From the NCBI GenBank assembly GCA_027061995.1, contig JAMOUT010000064.1, positions 1 through 8,716 of the forward strand: a stretch of DNA of 8,716 nt, written 5' to 3'. The notes under the pieces are model-generated. The model was not told the origin of the DNA. It made no database searches and was given only the letters and a program-made list of their open reading frames with translations. The stretch is from Candidatus Aminicenantota bacterium. GTDB taxonomy: Bacteria; Acidobacteriota; Aminicenantia; JAMOAD01. The translations under genes and the position numbers were made by a program. This document shows positions 1 to 8,716 of this stretch, in pieces (the stretch's first letter is position 1; each line of letters begins with the position of its first letter).

Positions 1-92
1 ATTTCGGTTTTATCTATGTAAATATAATCTCCATTAATTATTCTCTTAAAATCACTTATACCTACGGGCAAATTCTTTGATTTTTCACTCAT
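1..92 (-). CDS. AAA-ATPase-like / DUF1703 family protein, N-terminal fragment (cut by the window edge)
   Basis: Thirty complete codons are visible, reading MSEKSKNLPVGISDFKRII and then NGDYIYIDKTE before the edge. The pattern LPxGIxDFxxxI...YxYxDKT is the N-terminal signature of the large AAA-ATPase-like proteins (PF09820) that usually carry a C-terminal PD-(D/E)XK nuclease-like DUF1703 domain. These are often present in many copies per genome, and their role is poorly known. The Walker A motif, ATPase core and nuclease-like domain would lie outside the window, so they are expected but not seen. The start is the ATG at 92-90. No good Shine-Dalgarno lies upstream, only a weak TTGGT. The gene diverges from pyrK across a 348-bp spacer. 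I am fairly sure of the family from the signature but cannot say whether the gene is intact. Confidence 0.72.
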   Translation of the reverse strand, partial: MSEKSKNLPVGISDFKRIINGDYIYIDKTE

Positions 93-98
93 ATAATA

Positions 99-127
99 AT
101 ATTACCAAATTTAGGTTGTTTTTGCAA
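99..127 (-). promoter_or_regulatory. possible promoter for the leftward AAA-ATPase-like gene
   Basis: On the minus strand a TTGCAA (127-122) is separated by 17 bp from TAATAT (104-99). Each hexamer matches the sigma70 consensus at 4 of 6 positions. The predicted transcription start falls on or next to the A of the ATG at 92, which would give a leaderless message. The boxes are weak in an AT-rich spacer, so this is tentative. Its spacing and placement copy those of the much better pyrK promoter. Confidence 0.3.
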
Positions 128-230
128 TTTTCATACAGCACCCTTTTTCAAAGCAGAGCAGCCCACAGCTGTTCCAGCCATCAACTTTTGCAAATCGAAG
201 TTGTTGCTCGACTTTTCGGCTTGTGATTAA

Positions 231-250
231 ATGTAGCATGGTTTTAAAAG
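231..250 (-). repeat. repeat module B, copy 1 (inverted)
   Basis: Read on the minus strand this is CTTTTAAAACCATGCTACAT. It matches TTTTTAAAACCGTGCTATAT at 7933-7952 at 17 of 20 positions and also resembles 8048-8067. It is a short dispersed non-coding repeat of unknown nature. Confidence 0.55.
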
Positions 251-267
251 AGCTTGGAAGTTCGGAG

Positions 268-285
268 GCTTTATAATTTGGTGCG
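268..285 (+). repeat. repeat module D, copy 1
   Basis: GCTTTATAATTTGGTGCG is identical to 8228-8245, and both copies are followed by RGG. An exact 18-bp match between two spacers 8 kb apart is unlikely by chance, even in AT-rich DNA. It contains a perfect TATAAT, but no good -35 box lies at the right distance in either copy. Confidence 0.6.
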
Positions 286-387
286 AGGTTGCCCCGAATG
301 CTTTATATTTTAAGGTTTAATAATAACTTCGGGCTTTGACTGTCGGTTCAGCATTAATCAAATATTCTTGTATCTTATTCGATTTTT

Positions 388-404
388 AGGGAGTTAAACA
401 CCCT
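388..404. promoter_or_regulatory. operator-like palindrome upstream of the pyrK promoter
   Basis: AGGGAGTT-A-AACACCCT is a 17-bp inverted repeat, 7 of 8 positions symmetric, ending two bases before the -35 box of the pyrK promoter. The position would suit an activator or repressor site. No regulator can be assigned from the sequence, and one such palindrome could occur by chance. Confidence 0.35.
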
Positions 405-406
405 TC

Positions 407-435
407 TTGACATAAACCTGATTCTAATTTATATT
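407..435 (+). promoter_or_regulatory. sigma70-type promoter of pyrK-pyrD
   Basis: A perfect TTGACA (407-412), a 17-bp spacer and TATATT (430-435, 5 of 6) form a near-consensus promoter. Seven bases beyond the -10 box the predicted start site falls at 441-442, exactly on the pyrK ATG. No ribosome binding site fits between promoter and start codon. This predicts a leaderless pyrKD mRNA. Confidence 0.75.
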
Positions 436-440
436 CAAAT

Positions 441-1208
441 ATGCGGAAATATAGGAAACTTAAAATAACGGATAAAAAGAGATGGGGGAATAATTATTTG
501 TCTCTGTTTTTCGAAGATAAAGAGATAACGGATAAGGTTTTCCCCGGGAATTTTTTTATGATTAAAGTCGGTAATTTTTATAAAAATATTTTACCGAGAC
601 CTTTTTCTATAGCAAGAGTTTTTCCCGAAAAATCTGTTTTTGAGATATTTTTTCAGGTTGTAGGCGATGGAACGAAAATCCTGTCAGAATATAATGAAGG
701 GGATGAGGTTGAAATATTAGGCCCCGTCGGAAACAGGTTTCCTGTCAATAATGATAAAAAAAATATTCTTGTTGCCGGTGGTCGAGGGATCTCCCCTTTT
801 CTTTATCTTTCAAAAATCTTAAAATCCGAGAATATTGATTTTACCCTGTTTTACGGGGGAAAGTCGGAAAAAGACCTTATGTTTAAAGATTATCTATCGG
901 AATTTGATACGATTTTTATTACTGAAACAGGTGATTTCGGACAAAAAGGGCTTATAACAGAGTATCTTCCCGAAGGGGATTTTAATATTATGACATGTGG
1001 TCCCGATATTATGATGAAAAAAGTTTATGAATTTTATGAAAACAGTGATTCCTCTGTTTTTGTTTCGCTTGAAGAGAGGATGGGATGCGGGACCGGAATA
1101 TGTTATGGTTGTGCGAAAAAAATAATAACTCCGGAGGGGGTGAAAATGGTTAGAATATGTCAGGAAGGTCCCGTGTTTGACGGTGGAAAGGTGGTGTGGG
1201 ATGAGTAA
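441..1208 (+). CDS. pyrK: dihydroorotate dehydrogenase B, electron-transfer subunit PyrK
   Basis: PyrK carries FAD and a [2Fe-2S] cluster and passes electrons from PyrD's FMN to NAD+, so that dihydroorotate oxidation is NAD-linked. It acts in the cytoplasm in pyrimidine synthesis. The 255-aa length is normal for the family. The FAD-binding domain has the RPFSIA motif (residues 53-58). The nucleotide-binding motif reads VAGGRGISP (111-119). The cluster cysteines are C216, C221, C224 and C240 (Cx4Cx2Cx15C, in MGCGTGICYGC...RIC). The ATG at 441 is the only start after the in-frame stop at 408, and the N-terminus aligns with the family's usual beginning. It has no Shine-Dalgarno and sits at the predicted transcription start. 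It overlaps pyrD by 8 bp (ATGAGTAA). The family as a whole is related to ferredoxin-NADP reductases, but the pyrD neighbour settles the assignment. Confidence 0.95.
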   Translation: MRKYRKLKITDKKRWGNNYLSLFFEDKEITDKVFPGNFFMIKVGNFYKNILPRPFSIARVFPEKSVFEIFFQVVGDGTKILSEYNEGDEVEILGPVGNRFPVNNDKKNILVAGGRGISPFLYLSKILKSENIDFTLFYGGKSEKDLMFKDYLSEFDTIFITETGDFGQKGLITEYLPEGDFNIMTCGPDIMMKKVYEFYENSDSSVFVSLEERMGCGTGICYGCAKKIITPEGVKMVRICQEGPVFDGGKVVWDE

Positions 1209-2118
1209 ACCCGATCTGTCAGTCAAATTCGGGAAATTAAAATTTAAAAACCCTGTTATTCTTGCTTCGGGAACAGCCGGATACGGATATGAACTTGAAA
1301 ATTACATTGATTTGAATGAACTCGGAGGATTTATTACCAAAGGGATATATTTTAATCCGAGAAGCGGAAATCCTTCTCCGAGAATATATGAGACTCCCTG
1401 TGGTATGCTTAATGCAATAGGACTTCAAGGGATAGGAGTTAAAAGATTCAAAAGTGAGATTCTCCCTTTTTGGAAAAAATATAAAACCATTTTGGGTGTT
1501 AATGTTGCGGGAGAAGATGAGGATGAATATAAAAGGGTGGTTGAATATTTAAAGGATGAGAAAAGAATAGATTTTTTCGAGATAAATCTATCATGTCCCA
1601 ATGTTCATGCGGGGGGAAAATCCCCCTCTTGGGAGCCTGAGACAACTTATAAAATAATAAAATCAATAAAAAATATCAGTGATAAACCGATTATTGCAAA
1701 ACTCTCTCCAAGTGTAACATATATTGAGGAGATAGGAGAGAGTGCGGAAAAAGGGGGAGCTGACGGAATAAGCCTCGTGAATACTTTTGTGGGGATGGCA
1801 ATTGATATAAAAAGCAGAAAAGCGAGAATTTCCAATGTCCTCGGAGGGGTGTCGGGACCTGCAATAAAACCTATGGCTCTTGCCCTTGTTTATAAATTAC
1901 ATAAAACAGTGAAAATCCCGATTATGGGGCTTGGCGGTATAAATTCAGCCGAAGATGTTCTTGAATTTATAATTGCGGGGGCTTCCGTGGTGCAAATCGG
2001 AACAGCTTCAATAATAGATCCTGCCGCATCAATAAAGATAATTAAAAGTGTGGAAAAAGAGATGGTTGAACTCAATTATAAAAAAATCGAAAAACTTATT
2101 GGGAAAATGGAAAAATAA
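1201..2118 (+). CDS. pyrD: dihydroorotate dehydrogenase (class 1B catalytic subunit)
   Basis: This is the FMN enzyme that oxidises dihydroorotate to orotate, forming a heterotetramer with PyrK. The TIM-barrel protein is 305 aa from the chosen ATG. Visible features are the N-terminal NPVILASGT strand, NAIGLQ (71-76), EINLSCPNV (128-135) with the class 1B catalytic cysteine C132, and the C-terminal FMN phosphate site MGLGGI...AGASVVQIGT (242-269). A longer reading from TTG 1177 exists, but ATG 1201 follows AGGTGGTG (1189-1196) at proper distance and makes the classic overlap with the pyrK stop, so translation is probably coupled. The family's usual LQN motif reads LQG here (G77), a mild variation. 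It lies second in a two-gene operon read from the promoter at 407. Confidence 0.95.
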   Translation: MSKPDLSVKFGKLKFKNPVILASGTAGYGYELENYIDLNELGGFITKGIYFNPRSGNPSPRIYETPCGMLNAIGLQGIGVKRFKSEILPFWKKYKTILGVNVAGEDEDEYKRVVEYLKDEKRIDFFEINLSCPNVHAGGKSPSWEPETTYKIIKSIKNISDKPIIAKLSPSVTYIEEIGESAEKGGADGISLVNTFVGMAIDIKSRKARISNVLGGVSGPAIKPMALALVYKLHKTVKIPIMGLGGINSAEDVLEFIIAGASVVQIGTASIIDPAASIKIIKSVEKEMVELNYKKIEKLIGKMEK

Positions 2119-2298
2119 TCTTTATCATAACAGGATGAAAAGTGTAAATATAAATAAACATATGATAATTGTTTTTTACATGGTAAAGATAGATGTTTCT
2201 TTTAAAGTTTATTATAGATAATGCTGTCGATTGATATGATGTATGGCATAAAAAATGATATATTATTTTTTGGAATTTTTTAATAAGGAGGTATTATA

Positions 2299-3018
2299 AT
2301 GAAAAAAATTCTTTTATTATTTATAATCGTATTTTCTTTTTCAGCGTGTATAACTATTTATACCAATCTCCCGGGATATCAGGAAAATAGGGTGAAACAA
2401 TCAGATTTTGAAAAAAGATTTCAATCCGCTCCGAGAGAAAATATCTTAATCAATTCTGAAATAGGTGATTTTAGTATAACAGGGTTCAATAAAAAAGAGG
2501 TTATTATAAAAGGTAGTAAATCTTCCGATATCGGAGAATTTTTGAATGACATTGATATAAATATTATTAAAAAGGGAAAAACGGTTTTTTTTAATTCCAA
2601 TATTTATAATAAGATTATCAACAGCGTTAATATTGATTGCCGGATACAAACCCCTTTTGAAACCAATATCCAAAGTGAAATAGGAAGAGGCTCCGTTACA
2701 ATGAAATCTATAAGAGGTAATATTAAGATAAACGGGAGAAAACTTGATTTGAATCTGACGGATATAAGCGGCAAGCTTATCGTATCGGTTGAAGCGGGAA
2801 AAGTCAGATTAGTGATTTTGGAATGGGATAAAAATGATAATTACATTATCTCAAACATAAACGGGGATATAGAATTTTATGCTCCTAAGGAAGCTCTTTT
2901 AAATATTCAAGCAAAAGGTATAAAGGGAAATATTAAGGAAAAACATAAGTTTAAGAAAGGGGGAGCAAAAGTTGTTTTGGAAACAAAACGGGGAAAAATC
3001 ATAATAGATAAGATATAA
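2299..3018 (+). CDS. lipoprotein with DUF4097-like beta-repeat domain
   Basis: The product is a 239-aa lipoprotein. A short lysine start, a hydrophobic stretch and FSAC give lipid attachment at C17. From about residue 48 to the end the protein alternates short strands with G/D/N turns (for example INSEIGDFSITGF, MKSIRGNIKINGR, ISNINGDIEFYAP). This is the pattern of DUF4097/DUF2807-type right-handed beta-helix proteins of unknown function, often called putative adhesins or auto-transporter head-like. The start has a perfect AAGGAGGT (2285-2292) six bases upstream. A 180-bp spacer follows pyrD and 160 bp precede the Bat unit, so it is probably its own transcript or loosely linked. I see no clear promoter or terminator in those gaps, only a weak A/T palindrome at 2250-2271. 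It may be sorted to the inner or outer membrane. The lipoprotein call is firmer than the domain call. Confidence 0.7.
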   Translation: MKKILLLFIIVFSFSACITIYTNLPGYQENRVKQSDFEKRFQSAPRENILINSEIGDFSITGFNKKEVIIKGSKSSDIGEFLNDIDINIIKKGKTVFFNSNIYNKIINSVNIDCRIQTPFETNIQSEIGRGSVTMKSIRGNIKINGRKLDLNLTDISGKLIVSVEAGKVRLVILEWDKNDNYIISNINGDIEFYAPKEALLNIQAKGIKGNIKEKHKFKKGGAKVVLETKRGKIIIDKI

Positions 3019-3071
3019 TTAACCTATTTAAGGATTACAATTATTGAAGATACAAAACGATGAACAGATAA

Positions 3072-3099
3072 TTGTCAAACAGTGATTTCCTTTTATGAT
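3072..3099 (+). promoter_or_regulatory. candidate promoter of the Bat unit
   Basis: TTGTCA (3072-3077) and TATGAT (3094-3099) each match consensus at 5 of 6 positions and are separated by 16 bp. Transcription would start near 3106, giving a leader of about 73 nt that ends in the GGAG site at 3167-3170 before the ATG at 3179. No operator or riboswitch-like structure is obvious in that leader. Confidence 0.45.
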
Positions 3100-3178
3100 T
3101 GTTAAGTTATAGAGGTTTTTCACCCCCCAATTTTTTTTCATATTATGATACAATATATGGTTATTCGGAGAGAAAATT

Positions 3179-4891
3179 ATGCATTGGGGAAATTTTAAAG
3201 CAATCTATCTTCTTTTATTTTTTATAATTATTTTTATTATCGAGATTATAAAAAGCAAAAAAAACAAGCAACTTTTTTCAAAATACAAATATCTTAAAAA
3301 TATGGACAATGTTAATACGGGATATTTGCGATGGAGAAATTTTCTAATAATAACGGCAATCATATTTTTTGTTATCTCTTTAATGAGACCTCAGTGGGGA
3401 GTCAAAGAGCGGGAAGTTAATGTAAAAGGGGCTGATATAATTTTTGCTGTTGATGTGTCAAATTCCATGCTGGCAAGAGATATTACCCCTTCGAGACTCG
3501 AAAGGGCTAAAAGAGCTCTTTCAAAATTGATGGATGAGTTCTCAGGTAATTTTGTCTCTCTCATAGCTTTTGCCGGAGAGAGTAAAGTTATTGTTCCTCT
3601 TACTTTTGATTATAAATATATGAAATACAGCATACTTGCATTAGATATGGATAGTGTTGATATTCAGGGAACAAATTTCAAGGAGCTTTTGGAAAAAACC
3701 GTCCTTATCTTTAAGAAAACCAATAAAAAGAGGTTTTTGATTATTCTTACAGATGGTGAAGATAATGAAGGTAATATAAAGGAAGCTTTAAAAATGGCAA
3801 AAGAGGGAAATATAAAAATATATACAATAGGAGTGGGAACTCTCAGAGGGGAGAGGATTCCGGAATATGATTCCTCCGGTAATATAACAGGGTTTAAAAA
3901 AGATAGAAACGGGAATTATGTTTTCTCAAAGATTAATCCCGACATTTTAAGAACTATAGCAGAAACAACGGGGGGAAAATTCTATCTGAATTCCGATATA
4001 TTCAAATCATTAAAAAGTGCAATGGATGAAATCAAACATCATAAAACCGAAAATTCAGTAAAAGTATCTATTGTTCAATATAAAGAAAAATATTATTATT
4101 TTGCTTTTCTATCTTTTTTGTTTTTATTTATTGCATTTCTTTTACCTTCAGGAAGGGAGAAAACAAAAATGAAATTTCTCTCAATCATGCTTCTATCTTT
4201 TTTCCTCTCCGGATTTTCTTTGATAGACAGGGGAAACCATCATAATACCAAGGGTGTAAAAAAATATAAGAAAAAAAAGTATGCACAATCCTTAAAAGAG
4301 TTTCAAAAAGCAAAGGATTATACCCTTTATGACAGAAAACTTGATTTTAATATTGGAGATGCTCTCTTTAAACTCGGTAAATATGAGGAAGCTTTAAATT
4401 ATTATAAAAATGCAATAAACAGCTCCGATGAAAATTTAAAAAAATCAACCTATTATAATATGGGAAATGTATATTATAAGACAAAAAGATATAAACAAGC
4501 TTTGGATTCATATAAAAATGCCCTTAAGATAGATCCCTCTTTTAAAAAAGCGAAAAAAAATCTTGAATTAACCATAAAAAAACTTAAAGAAAAGAAAAAA
4601 CAGAATAAAAACAGTAAAAAAAATAATAAACAAAAGCAAGATAAAAAAAATCAAAATAATAAATCTCAAAAAGATAAACAAAAACAGAAACAAAATAAAA
4701 ACCGGAATAACCAAAACAATCAATCGAAAAAAAATCTTAAACAGAATAAACCGCAAAATAAAAAACAGAATCTTGAAAAAAAACTTTTGGAAAATCTTTT
4801 GAACAATTTGAAAAAAAAGGAAAGCAAAAAAAGGAAAAAGCTGAAAAAAGGTAAGAAAAAGAGGGTGAAATCCTATGAAAAAGATTGGTAG
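3179..4891 (+). CDS. batB: BatB-BatC fusion: VWA membrane protein with C-terminal TPR and basic low-complexity tail
   Basis: This is the core of a Bat (Bacteroides aerotolerance) complex, thought to act at the inner membrane facing the periplasm in stress tolerance; its mechanism is unknown. Order in the 570 aa: membrane segments about 10-25 and 53-69; a VWA domain (about 85-285) with the metal site DVSNS (D92, S94, S96), T165 and TDGED (191-195); a third membrane segment (307-323); a signal-peptide-like segment (331-347); two TPRs (about 385-456); a K/N/Q-rich stretch (463-530); a short helix and a tail ending KDW. The insert IPEYDSSGNITGFKKDRNG resembles BatB rather than BatA. BatB and BatC are usually separate proteins; here residues 1-330 match a whole BatB and 331-570 a whole BatC with no stop between. 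Methionine 331 keeps its own ribosome binding site. SD is GGAG at 3167. It overlaps batD by 17 bp. Confidence 0.88.
   Translation: MHWGNFKAIYLLLFFIIIFIIEIIKSKKNKQLFSKYKYLKNMDNVNTGYLRWRNFLIITAIIFFVISLMRPQWGVKEREVNVKGADIIFAVDVSNSMLARDITPSRLERAKRALSKLMDEFSGNFVSLIAFAGESKVIVPLTFDYKYMKYSILALDMDSVDIQGTNFKELLEKTVLIFKKTNKKRFLIILTDGEDNEGNIKEALKMAKEGNIKIYTIGVGTLRGERIPEYDSSGNITGFKKDRNGNYVFSKINPDILRTIAETTGGKFYLNSDIFKSLKSAMDEIKHHKTENSVKVSIVQYKEKYYYFAFLSFLFLFIAFLLPSGREKTKMKFLSIMLLSFFLSGFSLIDRGNHHNTKGVKKYKKKKYAQSLKEFQKAKDYTLYDRKLDFNIGDALFKLGKYEEALNYYKNAINSSDENLKKSTYYNMGNVYYKTKRYKQALDSYKNALKIDPSFKKAKKNLELTIKKLKEKKKQNKNSKKNNKQKQDKKNQNNKSQKDKQKQKQNKNRNNQNNQSKKNLKQNKPQNKKQNLEKKLLENLLNNLKKKESKKRKKLKKGKKKRVKSYEKDW
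4151..4171 (+). promoter_or_regulatory. internal ribosome binding site and in-frame ATG for a separate BatC
   Basis: GGAAGGGAGA (4151-4160) lies eight bases before an in-frame ATG (4169-4171, residue 331). From there the protein begins with a good Sec signal peptide (MKFLSIMLLSFFLSGFS), followed by the TPR region. This is what the start of a stand-alone batC gene looks like. Initiation here would release a 240-residue BatC in addition to the long fusion. Whether it is used cannot be told from sequence. Confidence 0.5.
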
Positions 4892-6641
4892 TTTGCTATC
4901 TCTTTGTTTTATTTTAATACTAACTCTTCCCGCATTCTCAAAAATAATAGTTCAAGGGAGTGTTGACCAAAATTATGTTATTCCCGGACAAACCATAAGA
5001 TATACATTGACAATAGAATCTCAAAATGAATCATCAAAAATAAATCCTCAACAAGTGCACTTCCCTACTGTTCAAGGTTTAAGAGTCTTAACAAGTTATA
5101 CATCAACGAGCAGTTCCTTCACTTTTGTAAACGGTAAAACAATGTCATCTAAAACTTTGAAAATATTTTATGAAATTGCAGTATTAAACTCCGCTCCGAA
5201 AACAATCAAAATTCCCCCAGTAAGAATCATGGTAAGGGGGAAAACATATGAGACAACCCCGATAGAATTATTTCTCAATAAAAAGAAGGGGATAAACCAA
5301 AATAAAAAAGGGGTTGCTTTTCTTGATGTTAAAATATCAAAAACAAAACTCTATCTTTATGAAAAACTTAATATAACCTATTATCTGTATATTAAGGAAA
5401 AATACACAATTTCAAATCTTAATCTCATAGATAAAGGGAAATTAAACAACTTTTTTGTTCATACAAAATATGATATTTTTACGATAAACCCGGCTTCCAT
5501 AATGACAACTGTAACAAGTATAAACGGCTTGAATTATAAGGCAATAAAACTTTTCTCTTATGATATCGCACCGAAAAAAGAGGGTAAAATATCAGTTCCC
5601 ATTATCTCAATCCAAGGAACTGTCAGTGTAAATGAGATGAGTTTTTTCGATGATCCTTGGAATTCGGATACAAGACAATTTATTCCCAAAAGAGTTGTTT
5701 TATCTTCGCCCGAAGCAAGAATAGATGTAAAAACCCTCCCTGAAAACCGCTTTAAAAATTTTTCCGGTATTGTCGCATCTGAACTTAAAGCAGAACAACA
5801 GATAAGTAAAAAAGAGGCGAGAACAGGGGAAGGGATAACATATACGATTAAATTGAAAGGGGATTTTATTCATGAGATAGTTAAAACTCCCGAGATAAAA
5901 GGGGATGATGTCTTTGAGATATATGATCCCGAAGTAAAATCCTCTGATAATTTTATTCAATATAAATATCTTATTATTCCGAAAATAGAGGGGAAGTTTG
6001 AGTTTTCTCCCCCCGAAATAATATATTTTAATACTATGAAAAACAGGTTTGAAAAAATCAAACTCCCGAAAATCGATCTGTCCGTAAGTAAAGGGGAAAA
6101 TTATTCTTTATCATCAGGTAAAAATAATATCGGGGGAAAAGAGATAAAAGTGGCATTCGGAGATATCTATTTTCTCAAACCTGTAAAAGAGATAGGGGGA
6201 AATTTTAAAATAGTTTTATTCAGTTGGTGGTATATGGGATTATTAATATTAAGTTTGATTTTCCCGCTTTTTAAAATAATAAAAGATAAAAAAACAAAAA
6301 GATACAGAGAGGATATGAGTTATAGGAAAAAAGTAAAAGCTTCGAGAATGGCGAAAAAATGGAAAAAGCAAGCACAAAAACACAATGGGAAAGATTTTTA
6401 TTCTTTCGCTTATAATTTTTTAATAAATTATTTTATCAATAAATTTTATGAGATAGATGAAGATACCACAACGGATAAATTAATTGAGTATATTGAGAAT
6501 AAGGTGAAAAACACCAAAATAACGGAAGAGATAAAAAGCGTTTTCTCGGAGATAGAAACATACAGATTCTCCCCGTCGGGAATAGAATTAAAAGAAGAGT
6601 TAATTAAAAGAATTGCAAACATTATCAATTATTTTGAATAA
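4875..6641 (+). CDS. batD: BatD oxygen-tolerance family membrane protein
   Basis: BatD is the large partner of the VWA Bat proteins, with periplasmic beta-sandwich repeats on one membrane anchor. This one has 588 aa, normal for the family. A Sec signal peptide (residues 1-22, cleavage likely after AFS) leads into the family's opening, VxVDQN-like (VQGSVDQNYVIPGQTIRYTL). Strand-rich domains with PGQ and RTGEG turns run to about 440. One membrane helix (about 446-468) follows, then a basic stretch and a helical cytoplasmic domain ending with the ETYRFSPSG segment (561-569) typical of BatD C-termini. The start overlaps the end of the preceding gene by 17 bp and has GAGGGTG (4861-4867) seven bases upstream, so translation of the two is probably linked. 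No frameshift or missing segment is seen. Confidence 0.9.
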   Translation: MKKIGSLLSLCFILILTLPAFSKIIVQGSVDQNYVIPGQTIRYTLTIESQNESSKINPQQVHFPTVQGLRVLTSYTSTSSSFTFVNGKTMSSKTLKIFYEIAVLNSAPKTIKIPPVRIMVRGKTYETTPIELFLNKKKGINQNKKGVAFLDVKISKTKLYLYEKLNITYYLYIKEKYTISNLNLIDKGKLNNFFVHTKYDIFTINPASIMTTVTSINGLNYKAIKLFSYDIAPKKEGKISVPIISIQGTVSVNEMSFFDDPWNSDTRQFIPKRVVLSSPEARIDVKTLPENRFKNFSGIVASELKAEQQISKKEARTGEGITYTIKLKGDFIHEIVKTPEIKGDDVFEIYDPEVKSSDNFIQYKYLIIPKIEGKFEFSPPEIIYFNTMKNRFEKIKLPKIDLSVSKGENYSLSSGKNNIGGKEIKVAFGDIYFLKPVKEIGGNFKIVLFSWWYMGLLILSLIFPLFKIIKDKKTKRYREDMSYRKKVKASRMAKKWKKQAQKHNGKDFYSFAYNFLINYFINKFYEIDEDTTTDKLIEYIENKVKNTKITEEIKSVFSEIETYRFSPSGIELKEELIKRIANIINYFE

Positions 6642-6642
6642 T

Positions 6643-6870
6643 ATGAAGTGGGAAAAAGATTTATATAAGGAGATTTTTGATTCTGTTTTATCCTCTTTAA
6701 AGATAAGAAAACAAAGAGATAAAAACTTTTCCATTGATAAGATAACGGGGGAATTAAAATCTTTATATATAACGGAAGAAAACTCGTGGGCGGGAAAAAG
6801 CAGAGTAAAAGAGATAGAACTTGAAGCTACCATATCAGCTTATGAGGTTTTTATATCCGAAGAAAATTAA
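6643..6870 (+). CDS. small protein of unknown function at the end of the Bat unit (75 aa)
   Basis: I do not recognise this family. The 75-aa product has a charged helical N-terminus (MKWEKDLYKEIFDSVLSSLK) and a C-terminal half, ITGELKSLYITEENSWAGKS followed by a long predicted helix (RVKEIELEATISAYEVFI). There is no signal peptide or membrane segment, so it should be cytoplasmic, the same side as the BatD C-terminal domain. The ATG lies one base after the batD stop and lacks a Shine-Dalgarno, pointing to translation by termination-reinitiation. A TTG at 6613 would add ten residues inside batD and is less likely. Its stop overlaps the nfo stop on the other strand. Codon use matches batD, which supports a real gene, as does an uninterrupted frame that exactly fills the space. 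Confidence 0.7.
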   Translation: MKWEKDLYKEIFDSVLSSLKIRKQRDKNFSIDKITGELKSLYITEENSWAGKSRVKEIELEATISAYEVFISEEN

Positions 6871-7709
6871 TCTTCAAAACTTCTTAATAATTTTATCTCC
6901 TCTTTCCATAAATCCCTATCCACTGTTTCAAGAATAAGAGGGATATTATCAGTCCTTTTATCTTTGATGATATTTTTAAAAACCTCAAGTCCGAGAGTTC
7001 CTTTTCCGAGAGACTCGTGTCTGTCTTTTTTCGAATTATACGGAACTTTTGAATCATTAAGGTGAAATCCTTTCAGATATTTTAAACCGATAATTTTTTC
7101 AAACTCCTTCATTGTTTTTTCATACCCCTCTTTTGTTTTAATATCGTATCCCGCGGAATATATATGAGCGGTATCAATACATACCCCTATTCTTGTTTTA
7201 TCGGAAATACCTCTGATTATATAATCAAGGTGCTCAAACTTGTATCCCAAGTTTGTTCCTTGTCCTGCGGTTGTTTCCAAAACAAGGGTGATGTATTCCG
7301 TTTCTTTAAAAACTTTTTCTATCCCCTCTATTATGTAGTTAAGAGATTCCTCTTCCGAGATTTTATTAAGGTGTGAGCCCGGATGAAAATTAAGATATAA
7401 AAGACCGAGTTGCTCCACTCTTTTTGATTCATCTATTAAAGCATTAAGGGATTTCTCCCTTTTTTCCTCTTCAGGGTTTCCTATATTTATAAGATAACCG
7501 CTGTGAGGTAAAACATGCTCTGGTTTTATCCCCGCTTTTTTAAGGTTTTCTTTAAAACCTATGATATTTTTTTCTTCATAAGGCTTACTAATCCATCTTT
7601 TTTGATTTCTTGTAAACATGGCGAAAGCATTTGCATCAAGTTCCATGGCATTTAAGGGAGCATATTCAACTCCACCCTGAGTGCTTACATGAGCTCCGAT
7701 ATATTTCAT
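6867..7709 (-). CDS. nfo: endonuclease IV (AP endonuclease)
   Basis: Nfo cuts DNA 5' to abasic sites and removes blocking 3' ends in base-excision repair. The 280-aa TIM barrel shows all nine ligands of the three-metal (zinc) site, at the same numbers as in E. coli Nfo: H69 (PHSGYLINIG), H109 (NFHPGSH), E145 (LVLETTAGQG), D179 and H182 (CIDTAHIYSAGYD), H216 (GFHLNDSK), D229 and H231 (KKDRHESLGKG), and E261 (LILETVD). The start MKYIGAHVS is the family's usual one. A perfect AAGGAGGT (minus strand, 7721-7714) lies four bases upstream of the ATG. It is convergent with the Bat unit, and the TAA stops overlap in TTAA. There is no room for a terminator between them, so read-through or antisense overlap at the ends is likely. 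It should be an active enzyme. Confidence 0.97.
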   Translation of the reverse strand: MKYIGAHVSTQGGVEYAPLNAMELDANAFAMFTRNQKRWISKPYEEKNIIGFKENLKKAGIKPEHVLPHSGYLINIGNPEEEKREKSLNALIDESKRVEQLGLLYLNFHPGSHLNKISEEESLNYIIEGIEKVFKETEYITLVLETTAGQGTNLGYKFEHLDYIIRGISDKTRIGVCIDTAHIYSAGYDIKTKEGYEKTMKEFEKIIGLKYLKGFHLNDSKVPYNSKKDRHESLGKGTLGLEVFKNIIKDKRTDNIPLILETVDRDLWKEEIKLLRSFED

Positions 7710-7726
7710 AACAACCTCCTTGAATT

Positions 7727-7755
7727 ATTATATCAGACAGTTAATTGAAGAACAA
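7727..7755 (-). promoter_or_regulatory. possible nfo promoter giving a very short leader
   Basis: On the minus strand a perfect TATAAT (7732-7727) is preceded at 17 bp by TTGTTC (7755-7750, 3 of 6). Transcription would start near 7720, at the edge of the Shine-Dalgarno, leaving a leader of about 11 nt. The weak -35 box and short leader make this uncertain, though short or absent leaders are also suggested elsewhere in this window. Confidence 0.3.
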
Positions 7756-7766
7756 AAAGATTAAAA

Positions 7767-7782
7767 GAGACAATACTGTCTC
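7767..7782 (-). terminator. terminator-like or operator-like inverted repeat upstream of nfo
   Basis: GAGACA and TGTCTC form a perfect 6-bp inverted repeat with a four-base loop. Read leftward it is followed by TTTTAATCTTTTT, so it resembles a weak Rho-independent terminator shielding nfo from transcription entering from the repeat region. A TGTCTG at 7739-7734 nearby repeats half of it, so a regulator site is the alternative. The stem is short and only moderately GC-rich. Confidence 0.35.
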
Positions 7783-7866
7783 GAAAAATAACAATTAAAG
7801 CGGTATGTCTAAATGAAGCCGAGCGGATAAAACTTGCATAATTTATATTTCGGATATGAATTGCAA

Positions 7867-7891
7867 AAATAATAAATTTGATTTATTATTT
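7867..7891. repeat. perfect A/T inverted repeat
   Basis: AAATAATAAAT and ATTTATTATTT form an 11-bp perfect inverted repeat around TTG. It is wholly A/T, so the RNA hairpin would be weak; a protein-binding site or a cruciform-prone element is as likely. It lies at the left edge of the repeat cluster. Confidence 0.45.
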
Positions 7892-7915
7892 GAATAGGTG
7901 AGGAGAATTAATTAT

Positions 7916-7950
7916 GAATTATGAATGCTGAATTTTTAAAACCGTGCTAT
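7916..7950 (+). repeat. heptamer plus module B composite, copy 1
   Basis: GAATTAT and GAATGCT heptamers (7916-7929) lead into GAATTTTTAAAACCGTGCTAT (7930-7950, one base longer than the module B core). The same arrangement, with one C/T change, ends at 8065. The frame from ATG 7921 reads MNAEFLKPCY and stops after 24 codons; this is not offered as a gene. Confidence 0.6.
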
Positions 7951-7954
7951 ATTC

Positions 7955-7990
7955 AAAGCCTCGAAGCCCAAAGCCAAGAGCCTCAAAGCC
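7955..7990 (+). repeat. imperfect RRAGCC hexamer cluster
   Basis: Five RRAGCC hexamers (AAAGCC, GAAGCC, AAAGCC, AGAGCC, AAAGCC) occur within 36 bp, separated by one or two bases. The segment TCAAAGCCTCGAAG (7954-7967) also matches 327-339 on the opposite strand with one base missing. It looks like degenerate simple-repeat DNA between the two composite copies. Confidence 0.5.
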
Positions 7991-8002
7991 GGTAATAATT
8001 AT

Positions 8003-8065
8003 GAATGATGAATGCTGAATGATGAATGCTGAATGATGAATGCTGAATTTTTAAAATCGTGCTAT
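8003..8065 (+). repeat. 3 x 14-bp tandem repeat plus module B composite, copy 2
   Basis: The unit GAATGATGAATGCT is present three times without a mismatch (8003-8044); each unit is two related heptamers, so the basic period is 7 bp. It runs directly into GAATTTTTAAAATCGTGCTAT (8045-8065), as in copy 1 at 7930. Copy 1 has only two heptamers, so copy number has changed between copies, as expected from slippage. Confidence 0.75.
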
Positions 8066-8081
8066 GTAAAGCTTTTTAATC

Positions 8082-8105
8082 CTTTGCTTTTTATAAAGAG
8101 CAAAG
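8082..8105. repeat. inverted repeat (possible RNA hairpin)
   Basis: CTTTGCTTT pairs with AAGAGCAAAG across a short A/T loop, giving about 9 bp with one G-U pair in RNA. No T-tract follows on either strand, so it is not a standard terminator. It lies just upstream of the ribosome-binding-like GAGGAG of the 44-aa ORF. Confidence 0.4.
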
Positions 8106-8121
8106 AGTTGAGGAGCTGAGA

Positions 8122-8256
8122 ATGCAAAAAAATATTAGAATGCAAAATTTAAAATTAAAAAAGCTACTTAGTTTGAAGCTACTCGGGTTCAAATCTCGCG
8201 AGAGCTTAATGGCTTCAATAGCTTTAAGCTTTATAATTTGGTGCGGGGAAATATGA
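8122..8256 (+). CDS. possible small ORF, 44 aa, function unknown
   Basis: The ATG at 8122 is preceded by GAGGAG (8110-8115) at six bases, a good ribosome binding site. The product would be 44 aa: a strongly basic first half (MQKNIRMQNLKLKKLLSLK) and a hydrophobic end (LMASIALSFIIWCGEI) that could touch a membrane. Against it, the last codons are made of repeat module D, the frame lies in the repeat-rich spacer, and no family is recognised. It could be a fossil start joined to repeat DNA, or a leader peptide ahead of the gene at 8291. Confidence 0.25.
   Translation: MQKNIRMQNLKLKKLLSLKLLGFKSRESLMASIALSFIIWCGEI
8228..8245 (+). repeat. repeat module D, copy 2
   Basis: GCTTTATAATTTGGTGCG is identical to 268-285. 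Here it lies 45 bp upstream of the secreted-protein start and contains a perfect TATAAT (8232-8237), which could serve as a -10 box for that gene, although no convincing -35 box is seen. Confidence 0.6.
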
Positions 8257-8290
8257 AACAATTAAAAAAATAAAATTTTAGGAGGAGAAA

Positions 8291-8716
8291 ATGTTAAGTT
8301 TTAACCCCTCCCGCAATAGCGGGAAAAAAGTTTCAATGTTTAAGTTTTTGTTTAATTTCAGGTTTTTGTTTGTGGTTTTGTTTAGTGTAGTGGTTGTAAG
8401 TTTAATGGGTTCAGTAAGTTATGCAAAGACATACGGAAGATTAAGGGTAAAAGTAGTGATTAAGGAAAGTGGTAAACCTGTAAAGGATTTGGGTGTGAAT
8501 CTGGTCAAGATAGAGAGTGGTAGAACATATGAAAAGAAGACAAATGATAATGGAGAGGTAGTATTTGAGAAGCTTGTAGCAGAGAGAGGAAAATACATGG
8601 TGTTGGTTGGTTTTTTGAATAGAAAGGGGACGATAATGGCGTATATTCCCGAGAGGTATAAATATTATGTAAGTATAGAGAAAGGTAAGGAGACATACTT
8701 AGAGGTAAAGATGGTA
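8291..8716 (+). CDS. secreted protein with Ig-like / carboxypeptidase-regulatory-like domain, N-terminal part (runs off the window)
   Basis: An open frame of 142 codons runs from ATG 8291 to the window end with no stop. A strong AGGAGGAG (8280-8287) precedes it. Residues 24-45 form a Sec signal peptide with likely cleavage after SYA (45). From about 50 the sequence alternates strands and turns (RLRVKVVIKESGKPVKDLGV, KTNDNGEVVFEKL, KGKETYLEVKM), the look of a carboxypeptidase-regulatory or CNA-B-like beta-sandwich, here probably the first domain of a longer surface or exported protein. Codon use differs from the other genes: 11 of 18 lysines are AAG and valine is largely GTA, while the pyr and bat genes favour AAA. 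This suggests a separate gene class or transfer. The leader before the hydrophobic core is unusually long; ATG 8336 (M16) would give a normal signal peptide but has a poor ribosome binding site. Confidence 0.75.
   Translation, partial: MLSFNPSRNSGKKVSMFKFLFNFRFLFVVLFSVVVVSLMGSVSYAKTYGRLRVKVVIKESGKPVKDLGVNLVKIESGRTYEKKTNDNGEVVFEKLVAERGKYMVLVGFLNRKGTIMAYIPERYKYYVSIEKGKETYLEVKMV
8309..8324. repeat. GC-rich hairpin inside the first codons of the secreted-protein gene
   Basis: TCCCGC-AATA-GCGGGA is a perfect 6-bp stem with a tetraloop, the most GC-rich structure in the window. It starts 16 bases after the start codon at 8291, is followed by a run of A, and encodes PSRNSGK. It resembles a REP-like palindrome and could also hinder or modulate translation of the early codons. 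Confidence 0.6.

Follow-up and report, generated by a model that had tools for sequence, protein, structure and literature searches.

A batB-batC fusion in a Candidatus Aminicenantota genome and an internal ATG that is most likely a remnant of the old batC start

The window, meaning the whole stretch of DNA analysed here (8,716 nt; GenBank assembly GCA_027061995.1, contig JAMOUT010000064.1, positions 1 to 8,716), comes from a Candidatus Aminicenantota bacterium and contains a reading frame of 570 codons with an ATG start and no internal stop, in which batB and batC are joined into one gene, batBC. The features of the locus are as follows:

3179..4891, + strand: batBC, fused BatB-BatC gene, a single ORF of 570 aa matched by the NCBIfam BatB and BatC models; the same fusion occurs in three other family genomes
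3179..4153, + strand: BatB part, residues 1-325, with TM1 (6-24), TM2 (about 50-70), a VWA domain (about 84-285) and TM3 (307-325)
4151..4160, + strand: Shine-Dalgarno-like GGAAGGGAGA within the reading frame, its core GGGAG lying 9 nt upstream of the ATG, predicted duplex of -8.4 kcal/mol
4169..4171, + strand: in-frame internal ATG (Met331), candidate relic batC start, absent in family genomes G001, G003 and G004
4169..4225, + strand: fourth hydrophobic segment, residues 331-349 by hydropathy (AlphaFold2 helix 329-349), the former BatC signal peptide and putatively now an internal membrane helix
4226..4891, + strand: BatC part, with TPRs (about residues 351-460) and a Lys/Gln/Asn-rich tail ending in EKDW
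4875..6641, + strand: batD, whose first 17 nt are shared with the end of batBC (Pfam BatD, E 2e-21)

The description of batBC in the sequence-only reading as two complete family members joined together was borne out by the NCBIfam models, each of which was matched nearly end to end: BatB (NF047506) by residues 9-318 (E 2e-41, model positions 9-323 of 324) and BatC (NF047507) by residues 343-551 (E 1e-28, model positions 16-205 of 214), with both scores lying under the curated Leptospira cut-offs (175 bits for NF047507). The BatB part has two N-terminal TM helices, a VWA domain with the MIDAS motif DxSxS (D92-x-S-x-S96, DVSNS) and one C-terminal TM helix, and the BatC part has an N-terminal signal/anchor segment, TPRs and a charged tail. 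Pfam placed the VWA domain at residues 86-229 and the TPRs at about 390-455, and the closest solved relative of the BatB part was the BatB structure 3ibs (phmmer, E 3e-33). The low-complexity Lys/Asn/Gln-rich tail (window 4571-4860, residues about 465-560) is longer in this protein than in its three family relatives. It closes on a KDW that is common to the BatC proteins of families f4 and f5; a C-terminal KDW, RDW or KNW (window 4880-4888) is conserved in BatC of families f1, f4, f5 and others, with the variants KQW, RQW and KSW in Spirochaetota fusions and KEW in Vibrio. This Trp-ending tail may, at a guess, be a ligand, perhaps for the MIDAS site of the VWA domain.

Apart from the adjoining batD, candidates for the other genes of a Bat operon lie on other contigs. 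MoxR (contig C6) and DUF58 (C29 and C74) lie at scattered places outside both bat clusters of the genome, and a BatA-like VWA gene on C57 (L010:5127-6095, - strand), which groups with BatA of typical operons in the tree, sits amid NADH dehydrogenase (nuo-like) genes outside any bat operon. The second bat cluster, on contig C5 (L009:3504-9241), has separate batA, batB, batC, batD and batE, the second and third of which share 14 nt and are read in different frames; a free BatC of another type is therefore probably made from it anyway.

The proposed topology starts from the charged loop after helix 1, which would put the N-terminus outside, keep the loop inside and make the VWA domain periplasmic, the location shown for the VWA domain of the Borrelia relative BB0173 (PMC5700661). 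Helix 3 would then enter the cytoplasm, where the short basic linker REKTK would stay, and helix 4, the former BatC signal peptide, would return the chain so that the TPRs come to lie in the periplasm beside the VWA domain. The earlier claim that this arrangement is workable agrees with hydropathy and with the AlphaFold2 model (mean pLDDT 87.7), which places two helices, 305-321 and 329-349, between the VWA domain and the TPRs; the pTM of 0.59 makes the placement of the domains uncertain. The product would thus be one inner-membrane protein, whose TPR domain and KDW tail, judging from the family, probably act with BatA and BatD, and the fusion would tie BatC to BatB in the same location that a secreted BatC would have. 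The function of the Bat family is poorly known, and that of batBC would be inherited from it.

Among the five genomes of the family sampled, including that of the window, all four having the gene carry batBC as an uninterrupted frame of 554-570 aa, the copies in G001, G003 and G004 being 51-53% identical to that of the window; batBC was not seen in the fifth genome (85% complete). The family fusions form one clade in the tree (support 100/100). Joining of batB and batC by an assembly or sequencing error could be suspected in a draft genome of 104 contigs, but the same open frame in three further independent assemblies, at 51-53% identity, rules it out for all practical purposes. Outside the family, ten fused loci were found, five in the phylum of the window (L107, L108, L109, L110 and L112) and five in Spirochaetota (L163, L169, L171, L177 and L179), and the nine whose junctions were inspected (all but L110) all retain the fourth helix and the Trp-ending tail. 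At least five changes of state are required to explain the fusions on a tree of 50 VWA sequences, only two of them forced by well-supported branches, and from this minimum we conclude that the batB-batC fusion is recurrent. It is also already known, and ordinary, with the present locus as a further instance: it has been published for Leptospira biflexa (Stewart et al. 2012, PMC3557215), whose protein likewise combines VWA and TPR domains but belongs to a different lineage, and other bat fusions have been reported in Borrelia burgdorferi, Spirochaeta thermophila and Francisella (PMC3557215). In a plasmid collection no record covered 80% of the batBC query, and the useful matches were from Leptospira interrogans, with separate genes, and Vibrio. 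The Vibrio campbellii fusion (L087, 667 aa) also has a BatB-like VWA domain and TPRs in one protein; unlike batBC, it is remote, ends in KEW and lies in a different gene neighbourhood.

The comparison of fused and separate genes in relatives that had been proposed as a check gave, beside the three other fused family genomes, a same-class family (f5) in which batB and batC are two genes read in different frames. Of the 15 f5 loci listed, 14 have a batC start that overlaps batB by 16 nt and one, L032, has an overlap of 22 nt; the Shine-Dalgarno sequence of batC, weak in some loci, lies where clear within the last codons of batB, directly before the hydrophobic segment (AGTGACAGGAGGTTAAAATGG in L024, for example). 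Family f4 has a 4-nt overlap, ATGA. The separate genes of L. interrogans and f5 resemble batBC in domains, order and the Trp-ending BatC tail, and their batC begins within the last part of batB, at a place comparable to the internal ATG; they differ in being two genes in different frames, with an overlap of 4 nt in L. interrogans and mostly 16 nt in f5. The Shine-Dalgarno sequence and ATG of the window stand at the position homologous to the f5 batC start, and we therefore take them for a relic that may be leaky. In the ancestor of the family of the window, overlapping batB and batC genes probably came to share one frame; a small frame change at the overlap would be enough to join them, with the old batC start left in place.

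The Shine-Dalgarno-preceded in-frame ATG that the sequence-only reading had pointed out at the junction is indeed present and is followed by MKFLSIMLLSFFLSGFSLIDRGN, a signal-peptide-like segment. Its predicted anti-Shine-Dalgarno duplex is stronger than those of batBC's own start (-6.6 kcal/mol) and of batD (-6.3), and a survey of about 0.3 Mb of this genome showed a duplex that strong before 2.5-3.2% of internal ATGs versus 30% of the first ATGs of long ORFs. By our own arithmetic (2% ATG per codon, about 8 junction codons and the 9.9% resampling figure given below), Shine-Dalgarno sequence and ATG would coincide here by chance with a probability of about 1-2%, so the combination is more than noise, yet not overwhelming. 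A chance origin, from purine-rich linker codons that happen to precede a Met and have no tie to the old batC start, is rather unlikely. Charged linkers easily make such sequences (of 148 ATGs preceded by a charged linker, 19 have one, and synonymous resampling of the linker PSGREKTK gave one as strong in 9.9% of draws), and the start is absent from the family relatives; what argues against chance is that the ATG stands precisely in front of the former signal peptide, where f5 has its separate batC start.

The suggested meaning, a start retained so that a single ORF can give both a tethered and a free TPR protein, failed the check that the sequence-only reading had itself proposed, conservation of the internal Shine-Dalgarno sequence in relatives, and the data lend no support to the start being needed. 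No ATG, GTG or TTG with a Shine-Dalgarno sequence occurs at the junction in the three family relatives with the same fusion, where the junction reads GGT AAG AAA GAG CTA AAA AAA TTC (G003) or GGG GAA AAA GGG TTA AAT AAA ATC (G004 and G001) and the aligned duplex energies, at -2 to -6 kcal/mol, are weaker than that of the window; an ATG ATG ending the third helix in G004 and G001 has no purine-rich stretch upstream. Likewise, from the third helix to the end of the fourth, none of the nine inspected distant fusions has a start with a Shine-Dalgarno sequence of this strength, the nearest cases being in L177, where an ATG immediately precedes the fourth helix (no Shine-Dalgarno sequence, -1.7), and in L179 and L112, which have a GTG (-5.8) and a TTG (-4.3), respectively, within that helix.

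These absences weigh on the idea that one ORF gives two products, with initiation also at ATG 4169, so that a free TPR protein would be secreted in addition to the fusion tethered in the membrane. The strength of the duplex, exceeding those of the two neighbouring starts, and the place of the ATG directly before a signal-peptide-like segment speak for it, as does the precedent of Cas11b (PMC11899642), a C-terminal subunit made from an internal in-frame start in cas8; that system is unrelated, and its Cas11 product has been shown, whereas a second batBC product is only possible. Searches of the literature on retained internal starts in fused genes found no Bat case. Against two products stand the missing start in all three family relatives, the lack of a comparable one in the nine distant fusions and the separate batC paralogue of the same genome. 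In the predicted RNA fold the Shine-Dalgarno sequence is also paired with a U-rich sequence downstream, which would count against initiation, though shuffled sequences fold about as strongly (z -0.26) and this comparison revealed no special RNA structure at the junction. We regard two products as possible but doubtful, and a gene caught midway in fusion, whose ancestral batC start would still work in the genus of the window while the sister genus has the fused form alone, appears no less doubtful. Tethered and free forms could also arise without an internal start, if signal peptidase cut behind the fourth helix and released the TPR part after translation. Ala-rich, AxA-like sequences follow this helix in L107, L108, L109 and L112 and GFS|L in the window fits weakly, but G001, G003 and G004 have no good site by eye (NFT or NSS before IIDKGN), which makes such release improbable.

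Taken together, the whole reading that we favour, an ancestral fusion with one four-helix membrane protein as the main product and a relic start, is probably correct. Judging from its position, the internal Shine-Dalgarno sequence and ATG are most likely a remnant of the old batC start. That the pair is better than chance could instead reflect current selection, and with the genus represented by one genome parsimony cannot tell retention from gain. The fused protein would be the main and sufficient product, and the old start may still yield a little free BatC.

The finding is modest: batBC adds one more instance of a recurrent fusion, which suggests that the two proteins, BatB and BatC, function together as a fixed unit. 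Should the old start still be in use, the locus would be a natural snapshot of an overlapping gene pair becoming one gene.
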